Assembly: GCF_011764545.1 (NCBI RefSeq)
Contig: NZ_AP022870.1
Coordinates: 1,720,001 to 1,784,000 of the forward strand
Length of the DNA stretch: 64,000 bases
Origin: Phytohabitans flavus
GTDB lineage: Bacteria > Actinomycetota > Actinomycetes > Mycobacteriales > Micromonosporaceae
Direction of reading: 5' to 3'
Under the pieces are notes generated by a model that was not told the DNA's origin, did not search any database, and saw nothing but the letters and a program-made list of their open reading frames with translations. A program made the position numbers and the translations under genes. Below are positions 31,240-49,761 of this stretch, piece after piece; within the stretch, counting starts at the first letter, position 1, and each line of letters starts with the position of its first letter.

Positions 31240-33159
31240 TCACCGCCCGCCGATCGCGGGCAGCGCCAGCGCGAGGGCCTGCGAACCGTCGAGCAGCATC
31301 AGCCCGCGCCGCGCGAACTCGGCGAAGACCTCCCGGACCGCCTCCGCCGGCAGCCGGCCGCCCAGCCTCTCGGACACCGCCGCCGCCGTCGTTGGGCGGT
31401 CGCTACAGGCCAGGTAGATCTCGGCGAGGGTGCCGCGGAAGGCGTACGTGCCCTCGTTCTCCGGGTCGCGGCCGTCGAAGATCTGCAGGAAGCCGGGCGC
31501 CGACCGGTAGGTGAGGACCGGCCGCCGCTCGGAGTCCCACTCGGCCTGCCAGGCCCGGACCGCCCGGCCGAGCTCCTCGTACGCGGTCTGCGGCAACGGA
31601 TCGACCGGGTCGTACTCGAAGAAGTAGGCGGCCCGCTCGAGGTCCACCCCGCTCGGATAGACGTAGCGGTAGCTGAGCTCCGGCGACCGCGAGCGCAGCG
31701 GGAAGGCGGCCTTGTCGGTGTACAGCGGGCTGAAGCGCTCCAGCCAAAGCCGGCCGGCGTTGCGCGGCGGCTGCAGGTGCCGCAGGTGCGGCACCATCGC
31801 GGCCTGGTCGGCGTAGTGCTCCGCGGTCTCGCCGGGAAAGCCCCACAGCAGGTTCCACGCCACGTCGACGCCGTAGTAGTGCGCCCACCGGAGCAGGTTG
31901 ACGTTCTGGACGGCGGTGACGCCCTTGCGCATGAGGCGGAGCACGTCGGTGCTCAGCGACTCCAGGCCTGGCTGGATCCGCCGCAGTCCGGCCAGCGCCA
32001 TGAGCTTGACCTGCTCGCGGGTGAGGTTGGCCTTGACCTCGTAGAAGAACTCGTACCCGGCCTCCGCGTCGATCAGGGCAGGGAAGAGCCGCTTGAGGTA
32101 GGCCGGGTCGAGGATGTTGTCGACCGCCTCGAAGCGAAAGCCGCCGTACCGCCCCGCCTGCCGCCCCAACTCGTCGAGCACCCGTCCCGGCGACTTGGCC
32201 CGGAACGCCATCGTCGTGCCGTTGAGCCCGCAGAAGGTGCAGTGGTGCTTGGCCCCCCACCAGCAGCCTCGGGCCGCCTCGAACGGGATCCAGATGTTGC
32301 GGCCACTCTGTCTGGGCAGCAGCGAGAGGTCCTCGGCGCGGGTGAAGTACTCGGCGTAGTCCGGCGCGGGCAGGCCGTCGAGGTGGGGCAGCGGCGGCGC
32401 GGCCGGCGTGGCCACCACCGAGCCGCCCTCCCGCCGGGCGACACCGGGCACGGCGCCGGGATCGGTGCCGGCGGCGAGCGCGGACAGCAGCCGGGGAAAG
32501 GCGACGTCGCCCTCGCCGATGACCGCGAAGTCGACACAGTCGACCGAGCGGACCAGCTCCAGCCCCATCTCGCCGTCGAAGTTGGCCCCGCCGAACACCG
32601 TGACCAGCTCCGGCCAGCGCCGCTTCAACCGGCGGGCCAGCGCGAACGAGGCCGCGTTCTGCTGGAACGTGCAGCTGAAACCCACCACGCGTGCCTCGCC
32701 CCACGGAACCGTGTCGACAAGTGCGTCCAGATAGGACGGTATGTCGTGGTCGCGGGTGTGTCGCAACCGGTCCCGCACTTCGTCTGGCGAGTCGACGAGG
32801 TGCCCGAGCTCGTCGGCGAACTCGTCGAGCAGCTTGCCCTCGGGATCGGGGGCGGCGTCGCCGAAGGCCGCGACCGAGAACAGCCACTCACCGACCATCC
32901 GGCCCCGGTGCTCGGAGAACCCGCCGTAGTACTCGGCGCCGATCCGGGCCGCGAGGTCGAGGTTCGCGTGCAGCGTACGGACCGGGAAGCCGTGCTCCTC
33001 GGCGATCGCCTTGAGCAGGCCGAGCTGGATCGACGGGCGGTAGATGCCCATGAACGGCATCGAGACCAGCACGACGGGCCAGGCCGAGTGCCGAGCCCGA
33101 GCGGCGGGATCCGGCCGGTGCGCGAACGGCGCTTCGACGATCGGCAGGGTGGCGGACAC
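31240..33159 (-). CDS. RiPP-maturation radical SAM protein (cobalamin-binding type)
   Basis: 639 residues. A B12-binding-like N-terminal half (about 25-230, FGGANFDGEMG) precedes a radical SAM core with the 4Fe4S motif C-x7-C-x2-C in RGCWWGAKHHCTFCGLNG. That spacing and context match the 'RiPP maturation radical SAM protein 1' family. Members are thought to modify ribosomal peptides, often by C-methylation at unactivated carbons. It starts with GTG at 33159, five bases after a 102-residue ORF that is the obvious candidate substrate. The same family occurs again at 42657-44552. Confidence 0.88.
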   Translation of the reverse strand: MSATLPIVEAPFAHRPDPAARARHSAWPVVLVSMPFMGIYRPSIQLGLLKAIAEEHGFPVRTLHANLDLAARIGAEYYGGFSEHRGRMVGEWLFSVAAFGDAAPDPEGKLLDEFADELGHLVDSPDEVRDRLRHTRDHDIPSYLDALVDTVPWGEARVVGFSCTFQQNAASFALARRLKRRWPELVTVFGGANFDGEMGLELVRSVDCVDFAVIGEGDVAFPRLLSALAAGTDPGAVPGVARREGGSVVATPAAPPLPHLDGLPAPDYAEYFTRAEDLSLLPRQSGRNIWIPFEAARGCWWGAKHHCTFCGLNGTTMAFRAKSPGRVLDELGRQAGRYGGFRFEAVDNILDPAYLKRLFPALIDAEAGYEFFYEVKANLTREQVKLMALAGLRRIQPGLESLSTDVLRLMRKGVTAVQNVNLLRWAHYYGVDVAWNLLWGFPGETAEHYADQAAMVPHLRHLQPPRNAGRLWLERFSPLYTDKAAFPLRSRSPELSYRYVYPSGVDLERAAYFFEYDPVDPLPQTAYEELGRAVRAWQAEWDSERRPVLTYRSAPGFLQIFDGRDPENEGTYAFRGTLAEIYLACSDRPTTAAAVSERLGGRLPAEAVREVFAEFARRGLMLLDGSQALALALPAIGGR

Positions 33160-33164
33160 GGCGC

Positions 33165-33473
33165 TCAGGCGACCAGGCCGATGTCTCTCCGATACACGTT
33201 GCTGCGCTCGTCGCCGGGGGTGAACGCCTCGGCGAACTGGGCCTGGATGCTGTCGAGGTCGTTGGCTGCCTGAGTGGCGGCCGTACCAGAGCCGGCTTGG
33301 TCGACCGAGCCTGTGGCGGTGTCGGCGACGCCGAGGACGATGCCGGAGAGCACGGCGGCCGCCAGGATCCGCTTGAGCAGCCGGCGCTCACTGGCGCTCA
33401 ACTGGGATTCAAGCCCGTGTAGCTTGTGCGCCAGGCTCTCCGCATCGCTTTGGCCAGCGTCTACATCAGGCAC
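33165..33473 (-). CDS. Candidate RiPP precursor peptide (102 aa)
   Basis: A GTG start at 33473 with a strong GGGAGG site at 33481-33486. The peptide has an acidic, helical N-terminus, a hydrophobic stretch (LAAAVLSGIVLGVAD, about 37-51) and a C-terminus FTPGDERSNVYRRDIGLVA. It lies immediately before, and probably in one transcript with, the radical SAM maturase, and I recognise no other domain. Size, position and lack of enzyme motifs suggest a precursor; the hydrophobic stretch leaves room for a small membrane protein instead. Confidence 0.6.
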   Translation of the reverse strand: MPDVDAGQSDAESLAHKLHGLESQLSASERRLLKRILAAAVLSGIVLGVADTATGSVDQAGSGTAATQAANDLDSIQAQFAEAFTPGDERSNVYRRDIGLVA

Positions 33474-33579
33474 GAAAACCTCCCGATTTTGCCCGACAGC
33501 AATCGACAGGCATTATGCCAGGACATCGGCCCACGTATCGATTGTGGATCGTCAACTCCGCCAATATATATAGCTGGCT

Positions 33580-36480
33580 TCAACAGGCGATGGCCGCATC
33601 CGCACGGTGGAGCTTGGCCCGGATCCCGCTCGCGTCGGGGTGGCCGAACGGGTCGAGGATGTCCAGGGCCTCCTGCCAGGCGAGGCGGGCGGCGTCCACC
33701 TCGCCGGCCGCCTGTTGCACGTCGCCGAGGTTGTTGAGCGCGCTGGCCTCGAAGTACCGGTAGCCGACCTTGCGCCGCAGGTCGAGCGCGCGCTGATAGC
33801 AGAGGATGGCCCGCTGGCGGTGGCCCTGGAGGTTGTAGATGTAGCCGAGGCTGTCCCAGGCATGCGACTCGCCCATCTCGTCGCCGGCCGCCTGGTAGAG
33901 ATCCAGCGCCCCCTGGCAGTAGGCGAAGGCGTCCTGGTAGCCGCCGAGGTGGGCGTGGTACCAGCCGACCGCGTTGCAGGCGCCGGCCAGCCCGGACCGC
34001 TCACCGGCGGCGCGGAATATCCCGGCGGCCTGCTCCGCGTGGCCCAGCGCCGCCCGGTGCTGCCCGCGCCGCTCGCGGACGAGGGCCAGGTTGAGATGGA
34101 TCCGCCCCTGCCCACACTCGTCGCCGAGCTCCCGGTACAGGTCGAGGGCCTCCAGCAGGTGGGTCTCCGCGTCGTCGCGCCCCAACCAGAGCTGGAAGTG
34201 GCCCAGCCGCCGGTGGGCGTGGGCACGCACCCACCGGTCGTCCAACCGCTCGCCGGCAAGCAGCGCGGCGCCCTGCACGGCGGCCAGGTCGTGCCAGAGC
34301 CCGCGGCGCTCGAGGAAGGTCGTCATGGCCCAGGCGAGCTGCCAGGTGTGCGCGTCGAAGCCGGCGGCCGCCGCGGCCTCCACAGCGGCGAGCAGCACGG
34401 CGTGCTCGCCGGTCAACCAGGACAGCGCCTGTTCCTGGCCGGCCAGCGCCTCCAGGGCGACGCCGGGCTGCGGCGGCGCCAGCGTGATCGGCTCCCGGTG
34501 CGGGTCGATCAGCCGGTCGGCGGCGTACGCCGTGTGCACCCAGTGGTTGAGCAGCCGGTGCAGGGCGGCGCGCCGGCTCGGCTCCGGGTCGAAGGTGTGC
34601 ACCAGCTCCATCGCGTAGCTTCGCAGCAGGTCGTGCCGGACGTACCGGCCAGGGCTGTGCTCGGTGATCAGGTTTGCGCGGACCAGCTCGGCCAGCACGG
34701 GCCGTACCTGCGCCGTGGACATGCCGTCGAGGCTGGCCGCGGTCGGTACCGTGATCTCCGGGCCGGGGTGGAGCCCGAGCAGGCGGAACAGCCGGGCGGC
34801 CGTTGGCGTCAGCGCGTGGTACGACCAGGAGAAAACGGTGCGTACGTCGATGGTGGGGTCGTCGCCGGTCAACGCGTCCAGCCCGCCGCCGGCCAGCCGC
34901 AGCTGCTCGGCGAGCGTGGCGAGCGTGGAATCGGGGTGGGTGGCCGCGCGGGCCGCCACGATCGCGATGGCCAGGGGCAGTCCCGCGCACAGGGTGATGA
35001 TCTCGTCGGCCGCGCCCGGGTGGGCGGCCACCCGGTCCGGGCCGAGCCGGCCGACCAGCAGCGCCCGCGCCTCGACCGGCGAGAGCAGGTTGAGCGTGAC
35101 CGGGTGCGCCCCGTCGGCCGCGACCAGGCTGGTGAGATGGTTGCGGCTGGTCACCAGCACCAGGCAGCCGGGTGAGCCGGGCAGCAGCGGCCGTACCTGC
35201 TCGGCGTCGCGGGCGTTGTCGAGCAGCACCAGGACCCGCCGGTCCGCGAGCAGGCTCCGGTACAGGGCGGTCTGCGCGTGCGGGCTGGCCGGGATGCGAT
35301 CGGCCGGCACACCGAACGCTTCGAGGAAGCCCCGGACCGCCTCGGCGGCGCTCATCACCGACCCGCTGGGGTCGAACCCGCGCAGGTTGACGTAGAGCTG
35401 CCCATCCGGAAACCGGTGGCGCACCTGGTGGGCGAAGTGCACGGCCAGCGCGGTCTTGCCGACCCCGGCGGTGCCGGACACGGCCGAGATGACGACGGCC
35501 TTGGCCCGGCCGCTGGTCATGTTTTCCAGCAGGTCGTCCAGCTTTCGCATGTGGCGCTCGCGGCCGGTGAACGGCGCGACGTCGGCCGGCAGCTGCGAGG
35601 GCACCGGATGCTCGGGCACCGCAGTGGACTTCGCCGCCGCGACCGGTGGCTCGTCCTCCTTGATCAGCGCCGTGTGGGCGGCGACCAACTCCGGACCCGG
35701 GTCGATGCCGAGCACCTCGGCCAGCCGGCGGCGGATCTCCTCGTACGCCAGGAACGCCTGGGCCCGCCGCCCGGCCGCCTGGTAGCCGCGGATCAGGCGG
35801 GCCTGTGCCGCCTCGTCCAGCGGCTGCTCGGCCGCCGCCTGTTCGAGCACGGGCAGGGCGTCGCGGGCGGCGTTGGTGGCGATCATCAGCTCGCCATAGC
35901 GGGCCAGCGCCGCGCGCCGCTCCTCCGCCAGCGCCACCACCTTTGGGTGGCTGGCGAGCATGGGGATGTCGGCCAGCGGGCTGCCGTGCCAGAGCCGCAG
36001 CGCCTCGCCGAGATGCGCCGCGGCCAGGCCCGGGTCACCGGACTGGTGCGCGCCGGCCGCGGTCACGGTCAGGTGGCGGAAGCGCACCAGGTCCAGGGCG
36101 CCCTCTGGCAGCCGCAGCGCGTACCCGTCGCCGACGCTGGGCAGGATCGCGCTCGGGGTACGGGGCGGCCGGCCCGGCTCCAGCAGCCGGCGCAGGTGCT
36201 TGACGCAGGTCTGGATCACGTTCGCCGCGCTCGGCGGGGGAGTGTCACCCCACAGCGCGTCAACGAGCTCGGCCCGCGACAGCGGCTGGCCGCAGGCCAG
36301 CGCCAGCAGGCCGAGGAGCGCGCGCTGACCGACCCGGCCCAGGTCGAGTGGCTCCTCGTCGCGCCAGGCGCGCACCGGACCGAGAACCTGGATCCGCAAG
36401 GCGACCACTCCGTCCACACGTCCGACCCACGTGTCCGTCCATTGACGATCACCCGTCCGGGCGGGCGACCGGTCTGGCAT
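33580..36480 (-). CDS. AfsR-like regulator: SARP + NB-ARC ATPase + TPR
   Basis: Up to 966 residues. An OmpR-type winged helix (VGQRALLGLLAL, ELVDALWG) and BTAD domain occupy about 25-275; an NB-ARC ATPase (GTAGVGKTALAVHFA, VLVLLDNARD, LVTSRNHL) about 310-620; and TPR repeats (DSLGYIYNLQGHRQRAIL, ALNNLGDVQQAAGEVDAA) fill the C-terminus. AfsR-type proteins activate secondary metabolism in response to an input sensed by the NTPase/TPR part. Homology begins near residue 27, so the GTG at 36408 may be the true start. The 106 bases before the candidate precursor suggest an independent promoter for that unit. Confidence 0.9.
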   Translation of the reverse strand: MPDRSPARTGDRQWTDTWVGRVDGVVALRIQVLGPVRAWRDEEPLDLGRVGQRALLGLLALACGQPLSRAELVDALWGDTPPPSAANVIQTCVKHLRRLLEPGRPPRTPSAILPSVGDGYALRLPEGALDLVRFRHLTVTAAGAHQSGDPGLAAAHLGEALRLWHGSPLADIPMLASHPKVVALAEERRAALARYGELMIATNAARDALPVLEQAAAEQPLDEAAQARLIRGYQAAGRRAQAFLAYEEIRRRLAEVLGIDPGPELVAAHTALIKEDEPPVAAAKSTAVPEHPVPSQLPADVAPFTGRERHMRKLDDLLENMTSGRAKAVVISAVSGTAGVGKTALAVHFAHQVRHRFPDGQLYVNLRGFDPSGSVMSAAEAVRGFLEAFGVPADRIPASPHAQTALYRSLLADRRVLVLLDNARDAEQVRPLLPGSPGCLVLVTSRNHLTSLVAADGAHPVTLNLLSPVEARALLVGRLGPDRVAAHPGAADEIITLCAGLPLAIAIVAARAATHPDSTLATLAEQLRLAGGGLDALTGDDPTIDVRTVFSWSYHALTPTAARLFRLLGLHPGPEITVPTAASLDGMSTAQVRPVLAELVRANLITEHSPGRYVRHDLLRSYAMELVHTFDPEPSRRAALHRLLNHWVHTAYAADRLIDPHREPITLAPPQPGVALEALAGQEQALSWLTGEHAVLLAAVEAAAAAGFDAHTWQLAWAMTTFLERRGLWHDLAAVQGAALLAGERLDDRWVRAHAHRRLGHFQLWLGRDDAETHLLEALDLYRELGDECGQGRIHLNLALVRERRGQHRAALGHAEQAAGIFRAAGERSGLAGACNAVGWYHAHLGGYQDAFAYCQGALDLYQAAGDEMGESHAWDSLGYIYNLQGHRQRAILCYQRALDLRRKVGYRYFEASALNNLGDVQQAAGEVDAARLAWQEALDILDPFGHPDASGIRAKLHRADAAIAC

Positions 36481-39800: not shown

Positions 39801-40115
39801 CCGCCGCGATGGGGCATCGCATACCACTACGGACTGATCGCCGAGATGTGGCTGGCCGCCGACATGACCGACGCGGCCGCAACCGCCCTCGACCGAGCCG
39901 ACCAGGCCCTCACGACCTACGGCCAACGTTTCGCCGAAGGGCTCCTGCTGTTGCTGCGCGCGCGCCTGCTGCACGCCCGCGGCGAACCCGTCGACGTCGT
40001 GCGAGCCGCCGCCGAAGCAGCCCGCGCCCGATCGGACGAACGCGGGGCCCACCTCTTCGCGCGCCGCTCCGAGCGGTTCCTGGCCGAAATCGACCAGCAA
40101 TCGCCGGACATTTGA
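36879..40115 (+). CDS. BTAD-domain regulator with AAA ATPase (SARP-MalT-like hybrid)
   Basis: About 1078 residues from the ATG at 36879, chosen because homology starts at LRLQVLGPLRVW; the frame is open further upstream. Order: winged helix (PRQQAYLLALLLAQ, ALIDLIWGDD), BTAD domain to about 300, AAA ATPase with EGEPGVGKTRLL (Walker A) and LLILDDLQWAD (Walker B), then a long TPR-like helical region. There is no LuxR helix-turn-helix at the C-terminus, so DNA binding rests on the N-terminal domain. It is divergent from the AfsR-like gene and may control region 2 or region 3. Target genes are unknown. Confidence 0.85.
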   Translation: MFSGVGVALPVHPVRPDDEGRPVGGVGLRLQVLGPLRVWRDGVELDTGPRQQAYLLALLLAQVGRPISASALIDLIWGDDVPSSALNVIQKYVGALRRLLEPAVPSRGTGSYLHRRGNAYLFTAPSGMLDLVAFRELVETAKEALAQHRHETALDRYIEALGLWQGRAGSGFTHGPTALPIFAALDDEFHAACAAAAELAMSLRRPVPVLPAVRLAASMAPFHEPVQASLIAILGAAGRRAEALSAFRTVRDCLADELGVEPGPALQAAYLQVLAQPATSSVVTGADVGGAAASARAAAGLVGRAEELAVLRQAVEMALTGRSALAIVEGEPGVGKTRLLQETAVEASQLGQFVVWGSCLEGDGTPSMWPWEQALRPILDSLPPPLREKWLASDLGGLLEPRNDSAAAPTVPDSGAQFRLLEQVVTVVGLASAQRPTLLILDDLQWADTASLQLFGHLAARLPAGTVIIGALRDRAPVPGSDLSRVLAAASRLPDHRRIRLGPLGLTEVTELIRREIGQDPGADVARGVHTRTAGNPFFVRELSRLLSDGGSLRDGEAAVPAGVPATVRDVVRDRMAGLDDSARDLLHVAALIGRDVDLALLAAAGGVDVADCLERLEPLQALGLLETKPESPHSLRFAHDLVRESVTETTTRQQTVHLHLLVADALERIHVDDESVAERLAYHLWAAGPLADPARTAQALARAGRRAATKLAFAAAARHLESAAQIARTAGLRDLELSVLSLLTLVASRHAGYGGSTFDLLERAEYLARMLGRETQAVHFLFVRMVGAYTSIEKDRGRWARRVYEQGQASADPIVQAYGRHAWGLYQWDIGNIGEAYRFFSEQGHTSPRHGAGDRGPWKVPNERIGWLAVITALHGDVETARSAIDKAYLADEDLFAMSAWAYYHTMAASMAGDAPWVMRAAERWIAAGADRSGVAQEHYIWLDWHWACAITGDDPAGKAAEAEQLLAATLLDPPRWGIAYHYGLIAEMWLAADMTDAAATALDRADQALTTYGQRFAEGLLLLLRARLLHARGEPVDVVRAAAEAARARSDERGAHLFARRSERFLAEIDQQSPDI

Positions 40116-40295
40116 TCGCGCGCTGGACGCGGGAGTCAGCCGCCGACGTGCGCGGCAGCGGCCAGGATCGCCTCGATTGGGCTTCGCCCCGCGCCCGATC
40201 CCCGGGTCACCGTCACGGCGTCCTAGCCCAGGCCACGCAAGTCTTGCTCTGACGTGGCGAGTCTTCCTCGATCCGACATCGTCGGAACGTCATCG

Positions 40296-40664
40296 TCACC
40301 TGTCAGCCCGGCGAAGCATCGCGTCTGTCTCGGGATCTTGCATGAGCTCCCGAACCTCCTGCGCGCAGCGGCAAGCGCCGGCAATCTTGGCCGCCCACGT
40401 CAGCGCCTCCTCGCGTGTGGCCACGTCGACGACCACGAACCCGCCGATGACCTCCTTGGTCTCCGGGTAAGGGCCGTCGGTGATCATCCCGTCCGTGGCC
40501 ACGACGCTCGCCCTCTGGCGTTCGAGTCCAGCGCCGAACACAAACACGCCAGCGTTCACGGCCTCCTGGATCACCGCGTGCGAGGCCTTGCCCACGTCGG
40601 GCCAATCCTCGTCGGGGATGTGGTCCATCGCGCCGTCATTGAACGAGATCAAGTACCGCGTCAT
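40296..40664 (-). CDS. YCII/DGPF-family protein
   Basis: 122 residues from ATG 40664 (AAGGGAG nine bases upstream; longer in-frame extension lacks homology). Features are MTRYLISFNDGAM, TDGPYPETKEVIGGF and the DVATREEALTWAAKI helix, typical of the DGPF branch of the YCII family, small dimeric alpha/beta proteins. These genes often sit beside ECF sigma factors, but none is present here. Convergent with the BTAD/AAA gene. Function unknown. Confidence 0.85.
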   Translation of the reverse strand: MTRYLISFNDGAMDHIPDEDWPDVGKASHAVIQEAVNAGVFVFGAGLERQRASVVATDGMITDGPYPETKEVIGGFVVVDVATREEALTWAAKIAGACRCAQEVRELMQDPETDAMLRRADR

Positions 40665-41328
40665 CCCATGACTCCCTTCTCCCAGCGGCCTCGTCCAGCC
40701 GCCTCTTGCCTGTTCTACGCACGACCCGCCCCGGATCCGACGCAAATGCCAGGAGAATTCTCACGGGTCTCCGCCGCTCGGCAACAGCGGGCGTCAAGTC
40801 GTCCGTGTTCGCGGGGTCGTGGCCGCCGCCACCGGCCACGAATAGTCCCACACAGTCATCCGCCGCTGATCGCGCACGGGACAAACTGCGGCGTCGGCGT
40901 GCTGGAGTGGCTGGTCGAGCAAGGCGCCGTGCATGACCTCGGCGGGCGGCGCAACCTACCACGGGTGTGGAGGGTGCGCGAATTGAACGGCCTCTTGCAG
41001 ATACCTGCAATCTCTTAACGACGGCGGTCCGGATACCGCCGTCGTGCTGCGTGTCCGCGTGATCGATGATCTTGGAAACCGAATTTGCGCCGCAATACGT
41101 CGTTCACCATATGAAGGAGCTGTATCTATTGATGTTATGAGTGTTGACGCGATGCGGACCGGTGTGGGAGCTTGAGGAAGCGAAAGCATATGGCCCGACC
41201 TGTGGTTCCATGCGGTGACATCGACGCCTGCGAATACCAAGGTCCTGCCGTATGCGGATACCCAAGTTCTGGTCGCGCCGCCGAAAGCGTGTCGGCGACG
41301 GTTCGTGCTGAATGGAGGGGGGCTCGCC
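40665..41328. other. Leader region of the biarylitide-type operon; several small overlapping ORFs
   Basis: No confident gene over 660 bases. The interval 41078-41150 is locally AT-rich and probably carries the promoter and start of the transcript. Three small frames deserve note: a 25-codon frame from GTG 41141 to TGA 41218; a 43-codon frame from GTG 41215 that overlaps it as GTGA and ends in MRYIH; and a 74-codon frame from ATG 41190 (GAGGAA upstream) to 41414 in a third frame. None shows recognised homology. Confidence 0.5.
41314..41322 (+). promoter_or_regulatory. Strong ribosome binding site of the MRYIH minigene
   Basis: GGAGGGGGG, with GGAGG at 41314-41318 ending 10 bases before ATG 41329. 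It is the best Shine-Dalgarno match in the leader and is what marks the five-codon ORF as translated. Confidence 0.75.
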
Positions 41329-41346
41329 ATGCGTTACATCCACTGA
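41329..41346 (+). CDS. bytA: bytA-type pentapeptide RiPP precursor MRYIH
   Basis: Five codons, ATG-CGT-TAC-ATC-CAC-TGA, reading MRYIH, far too short for ordinary gene finders. Biarylitide precursors are leaderless or near-leaderless pentapeptides of the M-x-Y-x-H pattern (MRYYH, MRYLH), encoded just upstream of a P450 that crosslinks Tyr3 to the residue at position 5; the tripeptide YxH is the core. Here the minigene has a strong ribosome binding site and the P450 starts 93 bases downstream on the same strand. The same codons also form the end of a 43-codon frame starting at GTG 41215, so a longer precursor ending in the same core is an alternative, but that start has no ribosome binding site. 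Confidence 0.85.
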   Translation: MRYIH

Positions 41347-41439
41347 CAGGTCAGGGCGTTGCGGCCATCCGGCGTGCCGGCTGGCCGCAGCGACGCCCGG
41401 TTCGAAGCGCGTAGCTCACCTCGGGAAGGGATGTGCCCT

Positions 41440-42660
41440 GTGACAGGAATGGGCCGCACGGCGGTGGGGGACCCGGTCTACGATCCGCTGGCGCCGGCCG
41501 TGATCGCCGATCCCCATCCGTATTATCGGCGGCTTCGCGAGGCGAATCCGGTCTATTGGCACGCGGCGCTGGACTCATGGGTGGTTACGGGATATCGGCA
41601 GTGTCGCCAGGTCCTTGGGGACACGACAAACTTCGGATCTGATTTCCGTCGAATAGGAATGGATATCCCGGAGGCGCGGCTGAGCGTGCAGTCGCTGGAC
41701 CCGCCTGAGCACGCCGATATTCGACACCTGCTGGTGGCGGCACTGCACGAACGGTCGCCGGCGGCGATGCGGCGCGAGGTTTCGACGATCGCCCGCAGCG
41801 GCATTTCCGCACTCACCGAGCGAGCGGGCACGGTCGACCTGGTCAGCGCGTTCGCCCGTCCAGTGGCCCTACGGACGATCTGCGCCTATCTGGGTATCGA
41901 CGCGCCGGATGGTTCGTCGTTCGAGGCGTGCTCCAACGCGATCGTGCGGAGCATGGACGCCGGCCTCGACCCGGACCGGGCCGAGCCCGGCGACCGGGCC
42001 CGCGCCGAGCTGAGCGCGCTGATCACCGACCAGCTACGCACGGCCGACGACCGGGGTTTCGTCGGCCTGGCCCGCGAGGCCGCCCGCCAGCGCGACGTGC
42101 CGGCGGCGGTGCTGGCCAACTCCCTGCGCGCGGTCCTGCACGCCGGCTACGAGTCGGTCAGCCGGCTGCTTGGCGGTGTGCTGGCCCGACTCGTCGGGGA
42201 CCCGGATCTGCTGGCGGCCGCCGAGACGCCGCCCCTGGTCGATGCGCTGGTCGACGAGACCATCCGACTCGACGGGCCGGTGCAGGCCGACGCTCGGGCA
42301 TGCGTAACCGATTGCCTGGTCGGCGAGCAACCCGTCCGGCGCGGCGACGTCTTGGTGCTGTTTCTGGCGGCGGCCAACCGCGACCCGGAGGTGTTCACCG
42401 CCCCCGACACCGTCGACCTGACCCGGGCCCGAGGCACCCACCTCGCGTTCGGGCGCGGCGCGCACGCGTGCCTCGGCGCCGCGCTGGCAACACTCCAACT
42501 GCGGGAGGTGCTGATCGGGCTGCAAGCCGCCGGGGTGGGGTTCGTCCCGTCCGGCGCGACGACGTACGAGCCGACGGCCACGCTTCGGGGGGTGGCGCGG
42601 CTGCCCGTATTGGTGCGGGCCCCAGGCCGGCTGCCCAACGCGACAGGGAGCCAACCGTGA
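41440..42660 (+). CDS. bytO: Cytochrome P450, biarylitide crosslinking type
   Basis: 406 residues from GTG 41440, preferred because GGGAAGG lies 10 bases before it (ATG at 41431 or 41449 are alternatives). P450 marks: I-helix AGYES, K-helix ETIRL, and heme-binding FGRGAHACLG with the Cys ligand. Biarylitide P450s install a C-N or C-C bond between Tyr and His/Tyr/Trp of the pentapeptide. The preceding MRYIH minigene makes Tyr3-His5 the expected site. The stop overlaps the next gene's GTG (GTGA at 42657-42660). Confidence 0.9.
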   Translation: MTGMGRTAVGDPVYDPLAPAVIADPHPYYRRLREANPVYWHAALDSWVVTGYRQCRQVLGDTTNFGSDFRRIGMDIPEARLSVQSLDPPEHADIRHLLVAALHERSPAAMRREVSTIARSGISALTERAGTVDLVSAFARPVALRTICAYLGIDAPDGSSFEACSNAIVRSMDAGLDPDRAEPGDRARAELSALITDQLRTADDRGFVGLAREAARQRDVPAAVLANSLRAVLHAGYESVSRLLGGVLARLVGDPDLLAAAETPPLVDALVDETIRLDGPVQADARACVTDCLVGEQPVRRGDVLVLFLAAANRDPEVFTAPDTVDLTRARGTHLAFGRGAHACLGAALATLQLREVLIGLQAAGVGFVPSGATTYEPTATLRGVARLPVLVRAPGRLPNATGSQP

Positions 42661-44552
42661 AGATCATCCTGACCGCGATGCCGTGGCACGGGCTGGAGAC
42701 CGCGTCGCTGCCACTGGGCATCCTCAAGTCCTGCGCCGAGCGGTGCCGGGCACGCCACGACGTGGTCGACCACTACGCCAACCTCGACTGGGCCGATCTG
42801 TTGCTGGCGGAGAGCGGCGGCGACATCACACCCGAGGACTACGACTACATCGCGAACGTGGGCGTTTGGCACTCCATCGGCGAGTGGGTGTTCGCCGGGG
42901 CCCTGTACGACGATCCACAGTGGCGGTATCAGCAGTTCCTGTCCTATCTGAGCGCGCGCCGGGTCGACCCGGGCAGGTCGCTCCAGATGCGGCCGTACGC
43001 GGACCGATTCGTCGACGCGACCGTGGCGTACCTGCTCGGTCAGGCGCCGGACGTCGTCGGGTTCACCACGACCTTCTCCCAAAACGCGGCCTCACTCGCC
43101 GTGGCGCGACGACTCAAGCGGCACCGCCCCGACCTGCCGGTGGTGTTCGGCGGCGGTAACTGCGAGGGGCCGATGGGCGACGCGATCAGCCGCAACTTCA
43201 GGTTCGTCGACTACGTGGTCAGCGGCGAAGGCGAACACGCCTTCGTGGCCCTGCTCGACGCCTTGGACAGCGGCGGTTCCGTCGCCGGGGTGCCGGGCCT
43301 GCGCTGGTACGACGAGGACGGAAAGCAACAGGTGAACCCGCCCGGAGCGACGGTGCCCATGACCCTGGTGCCTCGGCCGGACTACGCCCGCTGGCAGCAG
43401 GCGTTCACCGAGAGCCGGGTGGGCGCGCTGGTGCGTCCGCAGCTGACGCTGGAGGCGGCCCGGGGCTGCTGGTGGGGGGAGAAGCACCACTGCACCTTCT
43501 GCGGTCTCAACGGCACGAGCATGGCGTTTCGCGCCAAGCCCGCCGCAGAGTTCTTCGACGACCTACGCGACATGGTCGCGCGGCACCGGATCCTCGACGT
43601 GGTGATGGTGGACAACATCATGAGCCGCGACTACTTCACCGAGTTGCTGCCGCGGCTGCGGACCCTCGACTGGGATGTGACGATCCGCTACGAGGTCAAG
43701 GCGAACCTGCGCACAGACCAGCTGGCGCTGCTGTCCGACGCCGGGGTGCGGCACATCCAACCGGGGATCGAGAGCCTCAGCAGCCGCGTGCTGCAGCTGA
43801 TGGAAAAGGGCGTGCACGCCACGCAGAACATCCAGGTCCTGCGGGACGCCGACGACCACGGCCTCACCGTCGACTGGAACATCCTCTACGGCTTCCCGGG
43901 AGAGACCGAGGAGGACTACGCCGAGATCATCGCTCAACTGGGCGCGCTGGTACATCTGCAACCACCGGCCGGGATCACCCGCATCCTCCTGGAGCGGTTC
44001 AGCCCGTACTTCGAGCGTCCCGAACTCGGTTTCTCCTGGCGTCGGCCCGCCGAGCAGTACGACCACGTGTACGACCTGCCGCGGGACGAGCTGCACGACC
44101 TGGCATACCAGTTCGAAGGAACACCGAAGGGTCTGCGGGGCGAGCCGGAGCGGATGCTGTGTGAGGGCGTGCACGCCTGGCACGACCGGCACGCGGGCAG
44201 CAGCCTGGTGGCCACACCGGTGCCGGCAGGGCTGCTGGTCCGCGACCGGCGGCAGGGCTGGCCGGAGCGGGAGTACGTGGTCGAGGCGCCCGGGGCGCTC
44301 GCCGCGCTGACCGCCACGCGGAGCCCGCGCTCCACCACCGCCGTGCTCGACCTGATCGCCGCCGCCGACGGCACCGACCAGGCGGCGGCGCGTGCGGTGC
44401 TGGACCGGCTGCGAGTCGACGGTCTGGTCTTCGAGGAGGGCGGCCGGCTCGTCGCCCTGGTCACAGGATCGGTGCCGCTGCGGCCGGAGGTGACGGCCGC
44501 TGTTTCGGCCGAGCCGGTCGCAGCCGGTGCCGACGCCGGGGGTGCGCCATGA
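42657..44552 (+). CDS. RiPP-maturation radical SAM protein (cobalamin-binding type), second copy
   Basis: 631 residues. N-terminal cobalamin-binding-like region (about 1-220; GFTTTFSQNAASLAVARRL, FGGGNCEG), radical SAM core with RGCWWGEKHHCTFCGLNG (C-x7-C-x2-C), and a C-terminal winged-helix-like tail. The same family as the maturase at 31240-33159, with shared motifs IQPGLESLS/IQPGIESLS and GFPGET. Being co-translated with the P450, it probably acts on the same pentapeptide, for example by C-methylation; the site is unknown. Minimal biarylitide clusters do not contain such an enzyme. The stop overlaps the next ATG (ATGA). Confidence 0.88.
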   Translation: MKIILTAMPWHGLETASLPLGILKSCAERCRARHDVVDHYANLDWADLLLAESGGDITPEDYDYIANVGVWHSIGEWVFAGALYDDPQWRYQQFLSYLSARRVDPGRSLQMRPYADRFVDATVAYLLGQAPDVVGFTTTFSQNAASLAVARRLKRHRPDLPVVFGGGNCEGPMGDAISRNFRFVDYVVSGEGEHAFVALLDALDSGGSVAGVPGLRWYDEDGKQQVNPPGATVPMTLVPRPDYARWQQAFTESRVGALVRPQLTLEAARGCWWGEKHHCTFCGLNGTSMAFRAKPAAEFFDDLRDMVARHRILDVVMVDNIMSRDYFTELLPRLRTLDWDVTIRYEVKANLRTDQLALLSDAGVRHIQPGIESLSSRVLQLMEKGVHATQNIQVLRDADDHGLTVDWNILYGFPGETEEDYAEIIAQLGALVHLQPPAGITRILLERFSPYFERPELGFSWRRPAEQYDHVYDLPRDELHDLAYQFEGTPKGLRGEPERMLCEGVHAWHDRHAGSSLVATPVPAGLLVRDRRQGWPEREYVVEAPGALAALTATRSPRSTTAVLDLIAAADGTDQAAARAVLDRLRVDGLVFEEGGRLVALVTGSVPLRPEVTAAVSAEPVAAGADAGGAP

Positions 44553-45094
44553 CCGCCGGGCCGGCAACTGCGTCGACCGGTGCCGCGCCGAGCGCGCACC
44601 AGTCGGTGCGCATCGCCGACCGGGTACGCCTGGACGGCACCGACCCCGACGCCCTGTCCCAGGTGCGGGCGCTCCGCGAGGCGGCCGCGCTGGCCACCAC
44701 TGTGGACTGGGCGGTCGACCTGCCGCCCGGGCTGCCGGTGTGGACGCTGACCCACCTGCCTCCGCCACGGGAAGCGACCGGGCTCACCCCGGTCGAACTA
44801 CAGGAGTGGCGGCATCGCTACCGGTACGGCCTGTGCTACTACCGCCGCGGCCCGGACTTCGTGGTGGTCCACGACGACCGCCGCGAGCCGGCGACCCGGC
44901 GGGTCGTCACCGACCAGGCCGCCGTCGAGGCGCTCGCCACGCTGCGCCTGCCGCAACTCCCCGATGTGCTGCCGCCGGCGGTGCGGGCCGTGCTGCCCGC
45001 CTTGCACCGGCACGGTCTGATCCTGCGGCTGGGCGGCCAGGTACTCACCCTGCCGTGGCGTCCGACTCGTTGGCCCGTCCCCTGCACCCTGTGA
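44549..45094 (+). CDS. DUF5825-like protein, partner of the radical SAM enzyme
   Basis: 181 residues, no signal peptide or membrane segment. Recognisable features are a helical segment LSQVRALREAAALATTVDW, a central YRYGLCYYRRGPDFVVVHD and a C-terminal PAVRAVLPALHRHGLILRL. I associate this pattern with DUF5825, found beside radical SAM RiPP maturases, but this is from memory. Overlapping ATGA with the maturase suggests a direct partner, perhaps a substrate-presenting or recognition protein. Confidence 0.6.
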   Translation: MTAGPATASTGAAPSAHQSVRIADRVRLDGTDPDALSQVRALREAAALATTVDWAVDLPPGLPVWTLTHLPPPREATGLTPVELQEWRHRYRYGLCYYRRGPDFVVVHDDRREPATRRVVTDQAAVEALATLRLPQLPDVLPPAVRAVLPALHRHGLILRLGGQVLTLPWRPTRWPVPCTL

Positions 45095-45110: not shown

Positions 45111-46601
45111 ATGTCCAGTTCCACCACAGCCCCGCGCCACCACTGGCGCCGGCTGGCCGGGCTCGTCGGCGTGCTGTCGCTGTTCGTCGCCACGATGACC
45201 GCCGGCGGCGCCGCGCAGGCGGCGCCTGGTCCAGCGGCGGATTCAGCTGGGTCGCCGTTGGCCGACCGGTTGGCGTCCGCGGTCACCGGTGCCGACGTCT
45301 ACCGTCACCTGGCGGCGTTGCAGGCCATCGCTGACGCCAGCGGCGGTGACCGGGGCTACAACCGGATCGGGTTCACCCGCTCCGCGCGGTACGTGAGCAC
45401 GCAGTTGCGGGCGGCCGGCTACCGGGTGACAGAACAGACCGTGCCCTACACCGATTTCGCGATCGACACCGAGAGGCTGGCGGTCACCGGCGCGGGCGGT
45501 GGCGGCCTGCCGGTGTTGATGATGCGGTTCACCCCGTCCACCTCGCCGGGAGGCATCGACGCGCCACTGGCGACGCCGCCCGCGGGGCGCACCGGCTGCG
45601 ACCCGGCCGACTACACCGGGGTCGCCGTCACCGGGAAGATCGTGGTGCTGGCCCGCGCCGATTGCGGGTACACCCGCCAGCAACAGGTCGCCGCCGGGCT
45701 CGGTGCGCGCGCGGTGCTGCTGTACTACGCCACGCCGTCGCCCGAGAACATCTACCGGTTCATCGCGTTCACCCCGGCGGACTTCACCATCCCCACCGCT
45801 TCCGTGTCGCAGCGCGACGGCGAGCGGCTGGCACGCGCGGCGAGCGCCGGTACCGTCCGCGCGCACCTGGCATTGCAGGCCCGTTCCGTGCCACGCACCA
45901 CGGTCAACCTGGTGGCCGAGACCACGGGCGGCGACCCGGACGACGTCGTGCTGGTCGGCGCGCACCTCGACAGCGTCACCGAGGGACCGGGCATCAACGA
46001 CAACGGGTCCACCGCCGCGACCGTCCTTCAGGTCGCGCTGGAGCTGGCCGGCACCCAGGACGCGGTACCCAACAAGGTGCGGTTTGTGTGGTGGGGTGCG
46101 GAGGAGCTGGTCAACATCGGCTCGGAGTACTACGTCGCCAACCTCTCCGCCGCCGAGCGGCAGCGCATCGCGGCCGTGCTGAACGGGGAGCTGATCGCCT
46201 CACCCAACTATGGCCGTTTCGTCTGGGACCCAGGTACCGGCGGCTCACACGTCATCGCCAACGCCTTCGCCGCGTACTTCGACACGCACGCGCTGCCCTA
46301 CGAGCGGACCAGCCCCGACTCGGTGGGCTCCGATCACCTGGCGTTCCAGGCCGTGGGCATCCCGGTGGGCGGCATCGACGGCGGCTCGATCGGGATCAAG
46401 ACCCCCGCGCAGCAGGCGCTCTTCGGCGGCCGGGCCGGGCAGCTGTTCGACCACTGCTACCACCAGCCCTGCGACGCCACCGCCACGATCAACCGGCAGG
46501 CCCTCGACGCCAACGCGCCCGCCCTGGCGTGGGTGCTCGGGCGGCTCGCCACCGACGTCACCGACGTACGTGCGGCTACCACGCCGGGAGCCCCGCGGTG
46601 A
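45111..46601 (+). CDS. Secreted M28-family metallopeptidase with PA domain
   Basis: 496 residues with a signal peptide (RRLAGLVGVLSLFVATMTAG, cleavage near AQA-AP). A protease-associated insert (about 120-250) precedes the M28 catalytic core: GAHLDSVTEGPGINDNGS (His and Asp ligands), WWGAEELV (catalytic Glu) and DSVGSDHLAF (last His). M28 enzymes are mostly aminopeptidases. Inside a RiPP operon it could trim the N-terminal Met-Arg of MRYIH outside the cell to give the tripeptide, although such trimming is usually left to housekeeping proteases. GGAGG lies just before the ATG. Confidence 0.85.
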   Translation: MSSSTTAPRHHWRRLAGLVGVLSLFVATMTAGGAAQAAPGPAADSAGSPLADRLASAVTGADVYRHLAALQAIADASGGDRGYNRIGFTRSARYVSTQLRAAGYRVTEQTVPYTDFAIDTERLAVTGAGGGGLPVLMMRFTPSTSPGGIDAPLATPPAGRTGCDPADYTGVAVTGKIVVLARADCGYTRQQQVAAGLGARAVLLYYATPSPENIYRFIAFTPADFTIPTASVSQRDGERLARAASAGTVRAHLALQARSVPRTTVNLVAETTGGDPDDVVLVGAHLDSVTEGPGINDNGSTAATVLQVALELAGTQDAVPNKVRFVWWGAEELVNIGSEYYVANLSAAERQRIAAVLNGELIASPNYGRFVWDPGTGGSHVIANAFAAYFDTHALPYERTSPDSVGSDHLAFQAVGIPVGGIDGGSIGIKTPAQQALFGGRAGQLFDHCYHQPCDATATINRQALDANAPALAWVLGRLATDVTDVRAATTPGAPR

Positions 46602-47386
46602 CGTCGAACCAGGTGATGACCCCCGACACCGCCGCGGTCGAGAAGGACGGGTACGCCGACGTCGCCGGCATCTACGACCTGTTCGCCGCCGCGCAGGGCG
46701 ACGACGCGCTGCCCCGGGTGCCGGCGTTCGCCGCGCTGGCACAGCCCGGAACGCGGGTACTCGACGTGGGTGCCGGCACCGGACGGGTCGCGCTTGCCGT
46801 CGCCGAGCGCCAGGCCCACGTGTGGTGCGTGGAGCCCTCCGCGAGCATGCGCAGCGCGCTGCTGGCAAAGCTCGCCGACCGGCGCCCGCTCTGGCCGTAC
46901 CTGACGGTCACCGCCGGCAGCGCACCAGGACTCGAGATCACCGGCGTCTTCGACTACGCCTACCTCGCCGGCTCGCTGCAGTTCCTCAGTGCCACCGACC
47001 GGCGCCGGACCTTCGCCGAGCTCGCCGCGCACCTGCGACCCGGCGCACCGCTGGCGCTGGACATGGTGGAGGCCAAGCCCGCCGTGCCACAGGTGGGCCC
47101 GACCGAGACGGTGGTCGCCGAAGCCGAGGCCGGCCGGTGCCGGTACCAGCTGTCGGTGACCGTCCTCGCGGCCACGGACGACTCGGCCGACATTTTCTAC
47201 CGCTACGTCGCCGAGTGCGACGGACGCCGGTCGGTGCACCAGATGCGGCGACACCGGTACGTGCACCGCCTCGCCGACGTCCGGGCCGACCTCATCGCCG
47301 CCGGTTTCTCCCCGGCCACAGCGACCGGCGGCGCCTCCCAACCGCCCGATCCGACTGAGCCGCTCGTCGCATGGAGGAACCAATGA
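46598..47386 (+). CDS. Class I SAM-dependent methyltransferase
   Basis: 262 residues from GTG 46598, which overlaps the peptidase stop (GTGA) and has GGGAG upstream; the first ATG is six codons later. SAM-binding motif RVLDVGAGTGRVALA, acidic loop CVEPSASM, and the post-II element FDYAYLAGSLQFL. Within this operon an N-methylation of the short peptide is plausible: a methylated biarylitide (myxarylin) is known from a cluster with a methyltransferase. O- or side-chain methylation is equally possible from sequence. Confidence 0.85.
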   Translation: MTSNQVMTPDTAAVEKDGYADVAGIYDLFAAAQGDDALPRVPAFAALAQPGTRVLDVGAGTGRVALAVAERQAHVWCVEPSASMRSALLAKLADRRPLWPYLTVTAGSAPGLEITGVFDYAYLAGSLQFLSATDRRRTFAELAAHLRPGAPLALDMVEAKPAVPQVGPTETVVAEAEAGRCRYQLSVTVLAATDDSADIFYRYVAECDGRRSVHQMRRHRYVHRLADVRADLIAAGFSPATATGGASQPPDPTEPLVAWRNQ

Positions 47387-48395
47387 CCGCCGCCACGACC
47401 ACCGCTTCGGAAACCTCCACCGGCCTGCCCGCGGCCGCACGGCTTGCCGCCACGTTCGACCCCGACCGGCTGCGGGCCGAGCTGACCGCGTTGACCAGAG
47501 ACGACTGGCGGCGGCAGCGCACCTACTCGGAGGACGGTGCCAGCGAGGAGTACGCCGCGGACTGGCGGGTGCTGCCGCTACGCAGCCCCGGCGGTGACGA
47601 ACGGCGCACCGACGCCGGCGGGCCCGGGCCGCTGCCCTTCGCGGCCACGTCCTGGCTGGCCCGGGCCCCCTACCTCGCGGAAATCATCGAGTCCGTGCCT
47701 ACCAGCGTGCGGGCCGCCCGGCTGATGTCGCTGGCGCCCGGAGCCAGCGTCGAGACACATCGGGACACACCGCTTGGCTTCCCGTACGGCATGCTGCGCC
47801 TGCACGTGCCGATCGTGACCAACGACGGCGCGATCCTCGTGCTCGACGGCGAGGTGCACCGCTGGCAACCCGGCACCTTCTGGTACGGGGACTTCTCACG
47901 CCCCCACTCCATCGCCAACACCGGCACCAGCAACCGGGTACACCTCGTCATCGACTGCGCGATTACGCGGCCGCTGTTCGACCTGTTCCCCCGGGCTTCG
48001 TCGACGCGCTCGGGGTCGCCGACGTGCTGTTCGAACGGCCGGAGATCCCCCTGGCGCTGCCCGAACGGGCGACGTTCCGGTGCGCGTTCGCCCTGCCCGA
48101 GGACTTCGGCCACTGGTCCGGTGAGGCGTTCGGCGATCGGCCCTCGGACACCGCCGACCGGCGGGCGACGGTGGAGGAACAGCCCAACGGCCTGGTCCTC
48201 GACGATGGCACAGCCAGCGCGCCGATCGCCTTGGTACATGTCGGCGGCGGCGAGTTCCGCCTACAGGGGTGGACCGACGAACGCAGCCTGCATCTCGACC
48301 GCCACCGCCGCGTGGCCCGGTTCATCATCCGCACTGGCTCGTCCTGGCAGGTCACCGAACGCGAAACGACACCGTTGCCAGCCTCCCACCGGTGA
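47383..48395 (+). CDS. Aspartyl/asparaginyl beta-hydroxylase family protein (one apparent 1-base break)
   Basis: About 337 residues once a missing base in the C run at 47988-47992 is restored; frames then join as DLFP-PGFVDALGVADVLFERP. The cupin core shows iron ligands in ETHRDTP and RPHSIANTG and a 2-oxoglutarate Arg in NRVHLVID, matching Asp_Arg_Hydrox. The C-terminal half (about 210-337) has no recognised domain. The ATG overlaps the methyltransferase stop (ATGA) with GGAGG five bases before it. It likely hydroxylates the peptide product, perhaps at the Ile or His position; this is inference from context. Confidence 0.82.
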
Positions 48396-48414: not shown

Positions 48415-49761
48415 GTGGCGCTGTCCCCCGCACCCGTAACGGTTACCGGCCAGCGCCGGGCAACGTTCGGAATCGTCGCCGTCGTATCACTGGTGGCCTT
48501 CGAGGCATTCGCCGTCATCACCGCGTTGCCGGCCGCCCTCGCCGACCTGGGCGCCATTGCCGCATACGGTCCGGCTTTCGGCGTCTACCTGACCGCGTCG
48601 CTGTTCGCCAGTGTCATCTGCGGGGCGGCCGTCGACCGGCGGGGTCCGCTGCCACCGTTCATCGGCGGGGCCGTCGCCTTCGCCGCCGGATCGCTCCTGG
48701 TCGGTCTCGCACCGACGGCCGCGGCCCTGCTGACCGGGCGCGCCGCACAAGGACTCGGCGCCGGCCTGCTGGTGGTGGTCCTCTACGTTCTCGCCGCCCG
48801 CCGATTCCCGCCGACGGCCCGCCCGGCGGTGTTCGCCGCGATGGCCAGCGCGTGGGTGGTGCCTTCGATCGCCGGCCCGCCGATCGCCGCGCTCATCACG
48901 GTGCACGCCGGCTGGCGCTGGATCTTCGCCGCCGTCCCGCTCGCCCTAGCCCCGGCCATCGCCGTGCTGCTGCCGCACGTGCGCTCCTGCGGAGGCCCAC
49001 CGCCGGACCAGGATGACCCGGTCCGGTTTTCGCGGATCGCAGGGCTGGCGGCTGGCACCGCCGCCGGCGGGGTGGTGCTTCAGTACGCGATGACCGCGCG
49101 GTCGCCCGTCGTGATGTTCGGCTGCGGCGCGGTCGCCGTCGGCGTGCTCGCGGCCACGGTGCCCCGGCTGCTCCCGCCCGGCACATTGCGTGCCCGGCCC
49201 GGCCTACCGGCCCTCGTGCTGCTCCGCGGCGTACTGGCCGGAGCGTTCTTCGGCACGGAGATCCTGCTGCCGCTCATGCTCGTCCGCGAACGCGGTGCGA
49301 GCGCCGTCGTTGCCGGCCTGGTCCTGGCGTCGGGTTCGGTGGGCTGGGCGGTCGGCTCCTGGCTACAGGCCCGGCCTGCGTACCGTCAGTCGGCGCGGAC
49401 GCTGCCGGCTGCCGGTTGTCTGCTCCTGGCTGCCGGCATTCTCGCCGCCGCGGCCGGCCTCAGCGACCGGCTGCCGCCAGCGGCCATCGCTACTGGTTGG
49501 CTTCTCGCGGGAGTCGGCATGGGCGCCGGAATGACCGCGGTAAACCGCCACGCGCTGGAAGCGGCGCCGCCCGCGCGGCACGGTGGGACATCCAGTGCGC
49601 TGCAGGTCAGCGACGGCCTCGCCAGCACGCTGACCACCGGCCTGTGCGCCGCGATCGTCACCACCTGGGCGGCCGCACCCGCCGTGCGCTTCCACACCGC
49701 GTTTCTGGTCATGGCTGGGCTTGCTATCGCGGGCACCGTGGTCGCGGCGCGTCAGGCGTAG
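48415..49761 (+). CDS. MFS transporter
   Basis: 448 residues with about 12-14 hydrophobic segments; motif A region (CGAAVDRRGPLPPFIGG) and a GxxxGPPIAA-like stretch (VVPSIAGPPIAAL) typical of drug:H+ antiporters. It is last in the biarylitide-type operon, before a strong terminator, and probably exports the modified peptide. Start GTG 48415 is the first in-frame start before the first membrane helix and lacks a strong ribosome binding site. Confidence 0.8.
   Translation: MALSPAPVTVTGQRRATFGIVAVVSLVAFEAFAVITALPAALADLGAIAAYGPAFGVYLTASLFASVICGAAVDRRGPLPPFIGGAVAFAAGSLLVGLAPTAAALLTGRAAQGLGAGLLVVVLYVLAARRFPPTARPAVFAAMASAWVVPSIAGPPIAALITVHAGWRWIFAAVPLALAPAIAVLLPHVRSCGGPPPDQDDPVRFSRIAGLAAGTAAGGVVLQYAMTARSPVVMFGCGAVAVGVLAATVPRLLPPGTLRARPGLPALVLLRGVLAGAFFGTEILLPLMLVRERGASAVVAGLVLASGSVGWAVGSWLQARPAYRQSARTLPAAGCLLLAAGILAAAAGLSDRLPPAAIATGWLLAGVGMGAGMTAVNRHALEAAPPARHGGTSSALQVSDGLASTLTTGLCAAIVTTWAAAPAVRFHTAFLVMAGLAIAGTVVAARQA

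Follow-up and report, generated by a model that had tools for sequence, protein, structure and literature searches.

What is made from the five-codon gene that stands ahead of a cytochrome P450 gene in Phytohabitans flavus, and do the genes behind it share in making it? The question was addressed by computational analysis of 64,000 nucleotides of contig NZ_AP022870.1 (positions 1,720,001 to 1,784,000), a stretch referred to here as the window and numbered from its first letter. A minigene for the pentapeptide MRYIH is followed by genes for a P450, a radical S-adenosylmethionine (SAM) enzyme, a DUF5825 protein, an M28 peptidase, a methyltransferase, a hydroxylase and a major facilitator superfamily (MFS) transporter. 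Our analysis suggests that this is a biarylitide operon in which MRYIH would be cross-linked and tailored by the operon's enzymes, a reading that we consider likely. The radical-SAM/DUF5825 linkage, the M28 association and a covarying RNA hairpin go beyond the known bytA/bytO pair of precursor and P450 genes.

The coordinates of the features are given in Table 1. The P450 and radical-SAM genes overlap by four bases (GTGA), as do the radical-SAM and DUF5825 genes (ATGA); short gaps follow further on, and the methyltransferase and hydroxylase genes again share ATGA.

Table 1. Features of the MRYIH locus in the window
Feature	Position	Strand	Basis and remarks
Shine-Dalgarno GGAGG	41314..41318	+	Read from sequence; ten bases ahead of the minigene start
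bytA-type minigene, 18 bp, MRYIH	41329..41346	+	Sequence; only MxYxH five-codon open reading frame in the window; relatives' minigenes
RNA hairpin	41354..41397	+	Helix of 14 positions, 41359-41372 with 41377-41390; one U-C mismatch in the window; GCGGCC/GGCCGC core
bytO-type cytochrome P450, P450Blt-like, 406 amino acids	41440..42660	+	Homologue searches, solved relatives, I-helix, tree; GTG start
B12-binding radical-SAM C-methyltransferase (TIGR03975)	42657..44552	+	559.8 bits, curated cut-off 281.85; CX7CX2C
DUF5825 partner protein (PF19142)	44549..45094	+	90.5 bits, cut-off 25
M28 aminopeptidase (PF04389) with PA domain (PF02225)	45111..46601	+	Family search; signal-peptide-like N-terminus; candidate for Met-Arg removal
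Class I methyltransferase (Methyltransf_25)	46616..47386	+	Family search; weak likeness to daptide methyltransferase
Aspartyl/asparaginyl beta-hydroxylase family protein (PF05118)	47383..48395	+	Frame interrupted near 47985-48024
MFS transporter (PF07690)	48415..49761	+	Family search; last gene of the apparent operon

The MRYIH minigene and its P450

An earlier sequence-only reading of this DNA had described a minigene (ATG CGT TAC ATC CAC TGA) behind a GGAGG, with a P450 gene 93 bases downstream on the same strand, and all of these were found as described. MRYIH also fits the M-x-Y-x-H form claimed for it, and with its ribosome-binding site it has the form M-x-Y-x-[H/Y/W] of a biarylitide precursor. 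Both strands of the whole window were searched for five-codon open reading frames (ORFs) of the form M-x-[YW]-x-[HYW] with an ATG or GTG start, with or without a ribosome-binding site, and exactly one was found. A total of 37 MxYxH five-codon ORFs with a Shine-Dalgarno sequence occur in the 952,428 bases of 50 loci fetched with the window P450, and all 37 adjoin a P450 of at least 43% identity. A chance origin was rejected on its uniqueness in the window and its recurrence beside related P450s. The peptide itself is shared with four other loci (L006, L007, L010 and L120; L numbers denote loci throughout), and none of the papers searched contains MRYIH. A sigma-70 promoter scan found none (0.2 expected).

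The best solved relatives of the P450 are 8u3n, 8u2m and 8ukz (580-585 bits); RufO (8spp, 9duj) scores 279 bits. The structure 8u2m is named as P450Blt in a passage of PMC12186263, and the window P450 is 70% identical to P450Blt. The compared segment of the 8u2m chain is contained in the protein of L001, from Micromonospora sp. MW-13. P450Blt is a demonstrated Tyr-His cross-linker, and according to part of PMC12951456 it makes a C-N link. The I-helix segment LRAVLHAGYES is identical in the window P450 and P450Blt, and RufO has VRAFFHAGFEV. The segment includes A231, H234 and E238, named as specificity residues in a passage of PMC10929621, so that all three cross-linking active-site residues are present in the window P450. 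A longer ORF with a TTG start runs from 41359; it is unlikely to give the true start since the solved homologues align from about residue 6 of the GTG-started protein.

In a P450 tree of 74 rows (four near-duplicates and the short L034 excluded) the window P450 grouped with L064 (99/93), then within a six-row set that includes Micromonospora MW-13 (100/97), and then within 17 rows (100/99). RufO fell elsewhere, with L138, L071, L072 and L075. The P450 thus lies inside the P450Blt clade, as expected if the sequence-only reading had assigned it correctly.

Minigenes beside related P450s

A minigene was counted when it had the form M-x-[YW]-x-[HYW] and a Shine-Dalgarno sequence and lay on the P450's strand within 2.5 kb. 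Two sets of P450 loci were used. The genome_contigs search returned 55 loci for the P450, of which 50 gave a P450 match, and L051-L055 (partial matches) were dropped; its pattern search favours close relatives, and the counts are not those of the whole P450 family. The whole-genome set comprised 25 loci. It drew on P450 matches in 20/354 genomes of the family and 9/394 of the class, counts that include P. flavus itself, and excluded sites on contigs that had already supplied L001, L002, L003 and L011.

All 16 relatives of at least 58% identity have a minigene beside the P450 (11/11 in genome_contigs and 5/5 in the whole-genome set). Minigenes were also counted beside 24/24 genome_contigs P450s of 43-46% identity and beside 15/20 whole-genome relatives of 32-45% identity, whereas none was counted at the 15 genome_contigs P450s of 26-31% identity. 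Two of the five whole-genome loci without a counted minigene (L154, L155) carry an uncounted MSYDH ORF on the opposite strand. The proposal that homologous P450s should keep an MxYxH-type minigene therefore holds for the close relatives. Because the P450 groups with P450Blt and keeps its I-helix, and because minigenes recur beside its close relatives, it is close to certain that MRYIH and the P450 are a bytA/bytO pair of the known kind. The P450 is predicted from these homologies to join Tyr3 to His5 of MRYIH, probably through a C-N bond, since P450Blt makes such a link.

RNA hairpin behind the minigene

The 93-base gap holds an RNA hairpin. Folding z-scores were calculated for the 60 bases that follow the last minigene copy's stop codon. 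Minigenes of the upstream type gave z of -2 or lower in 24/24 loci and -3 or lower in 19/24. The hairpin is weaker behind downstream-type minigenes (15/32 and 10/32, respectively). Controls reached these values in 7/68 and 4/68 cases after other cluster genes and in 9/279 and 0/279 cases at random places. The window hairpin has a z of -3.07 in 60 bases and only -1.58 in 90 bases. In the tandem arrays of L004 (three copies) and L014 (two copies) a strong hairpin lies behind the last copy only.

Alignment of 15 of the 17 P450Blt-clade sequences (L121 and L146 excluded for poor alignment) revealed that, across the 14 pairs, 97.1% of cells retain pairing and that 8 of the 14 have changed on both sides. 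None of 500 shuffles reached any of five hairpin measures; as the sequences are related and the structure was drawn on the same sequences, this control is not a probability. When the hairpin was slid, paired cells never exceeded 45.3% and the covariation score never exceeded 0.078, compared with 0.470 in place, although one slide (+1) had five pairs changed on both sides. Rfam gave no match in 41200-41500. Applied to the window and 44 loci, a covariance model (R1) recovered its 15 training sites. Beyond these it gave E below 0.01 for the reverse strands of the training sites and for both strands of L008 18801-18842, far from a minigene. Because R1 found no minigene hairpin outside its training set in the window and these loci (L121 and L146 were not found), the GCGGCC form is specific to the P450 clade of the window; other clades have unlike hairpins.

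Stem-loops follow precursor genes in lantibiotic operons. We infer that the hairpin acts as an attenuator or as a protector of the 3' end, which would leave more precursor mRNA than enzyme mRNA. That it is instead only a DNA operator or a full terminator is somewhat unlikely. In favour of this, the hairpin is palindromic with an almost invariant GCGGCC core, a possible protein-binding site in the DNA; the covariance model hits both strands at its own sites; and operons, too, can end in GC-rich hairpins. Against this, pairing of the inner stem is maintained through many different sequences, the hairpin lies between minigene and P450 in all 24 upstream-type loci, and in both tandem arrays it stands behind the last copy only. 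The intrinsic-terminator scan does not report it, and thus it lacks the required T run.

The M28 peptidase

Here and below, neighbour counts refer to 55 biarylitide-type minigene loci, with the window not counted. Of the 16 relatives of at least 58% identity, 13 carry an M28 gene no more than 6 kb from the P450 and on its strand, among them the locus of P450Blt itself, where the M28 match begins about 120 bases past the matched P450 end. The three without it are L009, L011 and L121. M28 was found at 3/24 loci of 43-46% identity, at 16/55 minigene loci overall and at 1/20 loci without a minigene; the large MKYWH group is without it. The N-termini of these M28 proteins are signal-peptide-like as judged by eye, and solved relatives are the keratinase KP1 and aminopeptidases such as 1cp7. 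According to part of PMC12951456, characterised biarylitide clusters are without a dedicated protease; the term 'M28' is absent from its main text, and the biarylitide papers listed in the literature search likewise show no M28. The peptidase is a candidate for removing Met and Arg from the precursor.

The radical-SAM/DUF5825 pair

The radical-SAM protein scores far above the curated cut-off of TIGR03975. Its B12-binding domain (PF02310) scores 40.0 with a cut-off of 32.1, and a CX7CX2C motif stands at residue 271, the cysteines of which presumably bind the enzyme's cluster. Among the minigene loci the pair was found once, in L009 (Streptacidiphilus fuscans), where a fused radical-SAM-DUF5825 protein is followed by an MRYVH minigene and then a P450. 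In L114 (M. rubida) genes for a radical SAM (70%), DUF5825 (51%) and M28 (61%) are consecutive in the same order as in the window. Ahead of this radical SAM, at 11024-11214, lies a decayed biarylitide P450 of which the N-terminal part (best E 2.3e-8) and, weakly, the C-terminal end (0.003) remain and the middle is lost; no minigene was found in 20 kb. M. rubida has an intact MRYLH-P450-M28 set on another contig (L002), and the radical-SAM, DUF5825 and M28 genes of L114 look intact.

A total of 1,830 radical-SAM relatives were found at E 1e-100 or better, and among the 120 listed nine reach 60% identity. In a tree of 52 rows, 49 of them chosen from these 120, the window protein shares a clade of nine rows (100/100) with M. 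rubida and Cryptosporangium, and L009 belongs to a different one. Since the two fall in separate clades, the association of radical SAM with biarylitides is likely, judging from the tree, to have arisen at least twice. Among the matches listed for the 354 family genomes, only that of M. rubida exceeds 55% besides the window's own.

One sentence in PMC12257519 credits a homologous B12 radical-SAM and DUF5825 pair with C-methylating amino acids during clavusporin biosynthesis. The words 'radical SAM', 'methyltransferase', 'peptidase' and 'protease' are absent from the main text of PMC13417212; its supplement, with a list of 277 clusters, lay outside this search. It is quite likely that the pair in the window acts on the same pentapeptide MRYIH, and the view that it methylates carbon is slightly favoured.

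A second TIGR03975 radical SAM is encoded at 31240-33159 on the minus strand (641.1 bits); no DUF5825 was noticed adjoining it, although no search was aimed at one, and 33100-33700 is free of short ORFs with a good ribosome-binding site. Five further radical-SAM loci (L090, L095, L108, L112 and L113), with DUF5825 detected in four, have distant P450s (28-34%) nearby and no minigene, and are possibly another P450-bearing peptide family.

Proposed pathway and alternatives

Sequence, gene order, homology, phylogeny, recurrence and covariation were directly observed; all of the chemistry is predicted from homology, and the order of its steps, like the role of the hairpin, is inferred. The P450 would join Tyr3 to His5 of MRYIH. 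Radical SAM and DUF5825 would jointly C-methylate the pentapeptide, before or after cross-linking, most likely, in our view, at the side chain of Ile4. A further methyl group would come from the methyltransferase and a hydroxyl group from the hydroxylase. The M28 aminopeptidase would remove Met and Arg and halt at the cross-linked Tyr, and the MFS protein would export the product.

The sequence-only reading had arrived at a Tyr-Ile-His cyclic tripeptide. The cross-link is supported by homology; the bare ring is probably incomplete as an end product because the operon continues with radical-SAM, DUF5825, peptidase, methyltransferase and hydroxylase genes. As the apparent operon carries enzymes predicted to methylate, hydroxylate and trim, the product is likely to be more elaborate than known biarylitides. 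That a cross-linked, C-methylated tripeptide from a five-residue ribosomal peptide, a dedicated minigene hairpin and a secreted M28 of the P450Blt branch all hold jointly is a tentative proposal, to which we give a little less than an even chance.

A plain biarylitide locus, in which minigene, P450 and M28 yield only cross-linked YIH and the radical-SAM/DUF5825 pair serves an unlinked precursor, is unlikely. Fifteen of the 16 relatives at or above 58% identity have no such pair, and family relatives of the radical SAM (about 42-52% identity) occur in 4.5-4.9 kb stretches without a minigene. However, four-base overlaps tie the P450, radical-SAM and DUF5825 genes together, the order of P450 remnant, radical SAM, DUF5825 and M28 recurs in M. 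rubida, and the pair recurs beside the MRYVH minigene of L009. A scan of the plus strand of 40100-41450 for other ORFs of 3-70 codons behind a good ribosome-binding site gave just one, GTG-started at 40480 and antisense to a YCII gene.

Another reading, that the radical SAM does not methylate but introduces a second cross-link or carries out some other oxidation, as PbsB and BipD do in biphenomycin-type pathways, is distinctly unlikely. Cross-linking of aromatic residues is known for some B12 radical-SAM enzymes (passages of PMC12257519 and PMC12707348), but the window protein matches a C-methyltransferase family far above its cut-off, DUF5825 marks the methylating pair of clavusporins in the part of the literature cited above, and the only aromatic residues of MRYIH, Tyr and His, would both be used by the P450.

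Several points weigh against the tailored-biarylitide pathway favoured here. The radical-SAM/DUF5825 pair occurs in only 1 of the 16 close relatives and 1 of the 55 minigene loci, and the L009 enzyme belongs to a different clade; its link to biarylitides thus rests on two intact clusters and a decayed one. The predicted structure of DUF5825 is poor (predicted local distance difference test, 49.9), and the modelling offered no support for how the radical SAM would bind a five-residue substrate. Enzymes of the B12 radical-SAM type can also form cross-links, as just cited. The hydroxylase frame is interrupted in the window. Expression in Saccharothrix with a hydroxylase and an amidinotransferase gave the ring only, unmodified by either (part of PMC13417212). 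In myxarylin biosynthesis, as described in part of PMC12951456, leader removal precedes N-methylation, an order that conflicts with a secreted M28.

Methyltransferase, hydroxylase and transporter genes

The methyltransferase scores 59.1 bits with the daptide methyltransferase model, below the cut-off of 175. Its homologues lie near 8 of the 55 minigene loci, the closest in L121 (54%), and hydroxylase homologues near 9, one of them on the opposite strand; both enzymes are therefore part of the biarylitide repertoire. A second biarylitide locus in the MW-13 genome (L130) has MRYWH, a methyltransferase and a hydroxylase. In relatives such as L125 and L130 a single frame holds both hydroxylase halves. 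The assembly is a single contig of 89.03% completeness, and nonribosomal peptide synthetase (NRPS) domains in the window are spread over overlapping partial ORFs; for these reasons the frame break, like the partial ORFs, is possibly an indel error of sequencing. Among the minigene loci only L121 has a match to the MFS protein (51%). A plasmid search gave two records, both below 41%.

Neighbouring NRPS and polyketide synthase genes

Genes for a thioesterase, a Lant_dehydr_N protein, NRPS and polyketide synthase (PKS) lie at about 1.6-28.8 kb of the window. A Lant_dehydr search of 61 genomes gave matches in 14 others, and in the best three of these, G075, G094 and G317, this core recurs. The 80, 40 and 40 kb taken from them, respectively, gave no match at E 1e-10 to the P450, radical SAM, DUF5825 or M28. 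For this reason the NRPS/PKS genes and the biarylitide operon look like separate neighbouring clusters, and supply of the NRPS was set aside as the principal explanation. The Lant_dehydr_N protein at 25666-28023 (minus strand) has a 47% copy just outside the window in the same genome. The minus strand of 59402-63715 encodes a large protein whose caspase domain is of the EACC1-associated type.

A search for nitric oxide (NO) synthase (PF02898) found no match in the P. flavus genome (89% complete), with the control positive in 2/14. Nitration of the rufomycin type was rejected on this result and on the P450Blt-type I-helix; the P450 has neither a RufO-like I-helix nor a place in the RufO clade. 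It is very improbable that Tyr3, modified by the P450, is released by the peptidase and passed to the NRPS/PKS at 1.6-28 kb, in the way that rufomycin uses MRYLH (a passage of PMC12186263), for although such a cluster lies inside the same window, the NO synthase match is missing from the genome, the I-helix is not of the RufO type and the NRPS/PKS core recurs elsewhere apart from the operon genes.

Comparison with known systems

The tailored biarylitide operon proposed here is closest to the P450Blt cluster of Micromonospora sp. MW-13 (L001; PDB 8u2m), with which it shares the upstream 18-bp minigene, the P450, its I-helix, the hairpin and an M28 gene directly downstream whose product is 74% identical to that of the window. 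That cluster differs in encoding MRYLH rather than MRYIH, and no radical-SAM, DUF5825, methyltransferase or hydroxylase match was found in the 21 kb searched. The rufomycin pathway likewise has an MRYLH pentapeptide, a related P450, an aminopeptidase and NRPS genes nearby; however, RufO nitrates with an NO synthase, and the window P450 has the cross-linking type of I-helix.

The YVH cluster of Saccharothrix variisporea, as described in part of PMC13417212, has an MRYVH minigene, a P450 and a hydroxylase that carries the same family name, but differs in having an amidinotransferase, in that radical SAM goes unmentioned, and in its C-C cross-link, compared with the C-N link of P450Blt. Clavusporin biosynthesis shares the B12 radical-SAM and DUF5825 families and has another precursor (via a passage of PMC12257519). 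Myxarylin, as described in part of PMC12951456, shares a pentapeptide, a cross-linking P450 and an extra methyltransferase; there, leader removal is likely by a prolyl oligopeptidase, and that part names no radical SAM or M28 for the cluster.

Implications for biarylitides

Biarylitides were inactive in various assays, and at least one isolated compound is suspected to be an unfinished intermediate (part of PMC13417212). An operon like this, with several additional maturases, is a promising source of a finished biarylitide. Next to the P450, the M28 gene would supply the dedicated peptidase that, by the passage of PMC12951456 cited above, characterised clusters lack, and the hairpin is a second sequence signal for finding 18-bp genes missed by annotation. 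Should MRYIH be a substrate of the radical-SAM pair, it would allow a direct test of how a substrate with no more than two leader residues is recognised, and would be the smallest ribosomal substrate of any radical-SAM maturase.

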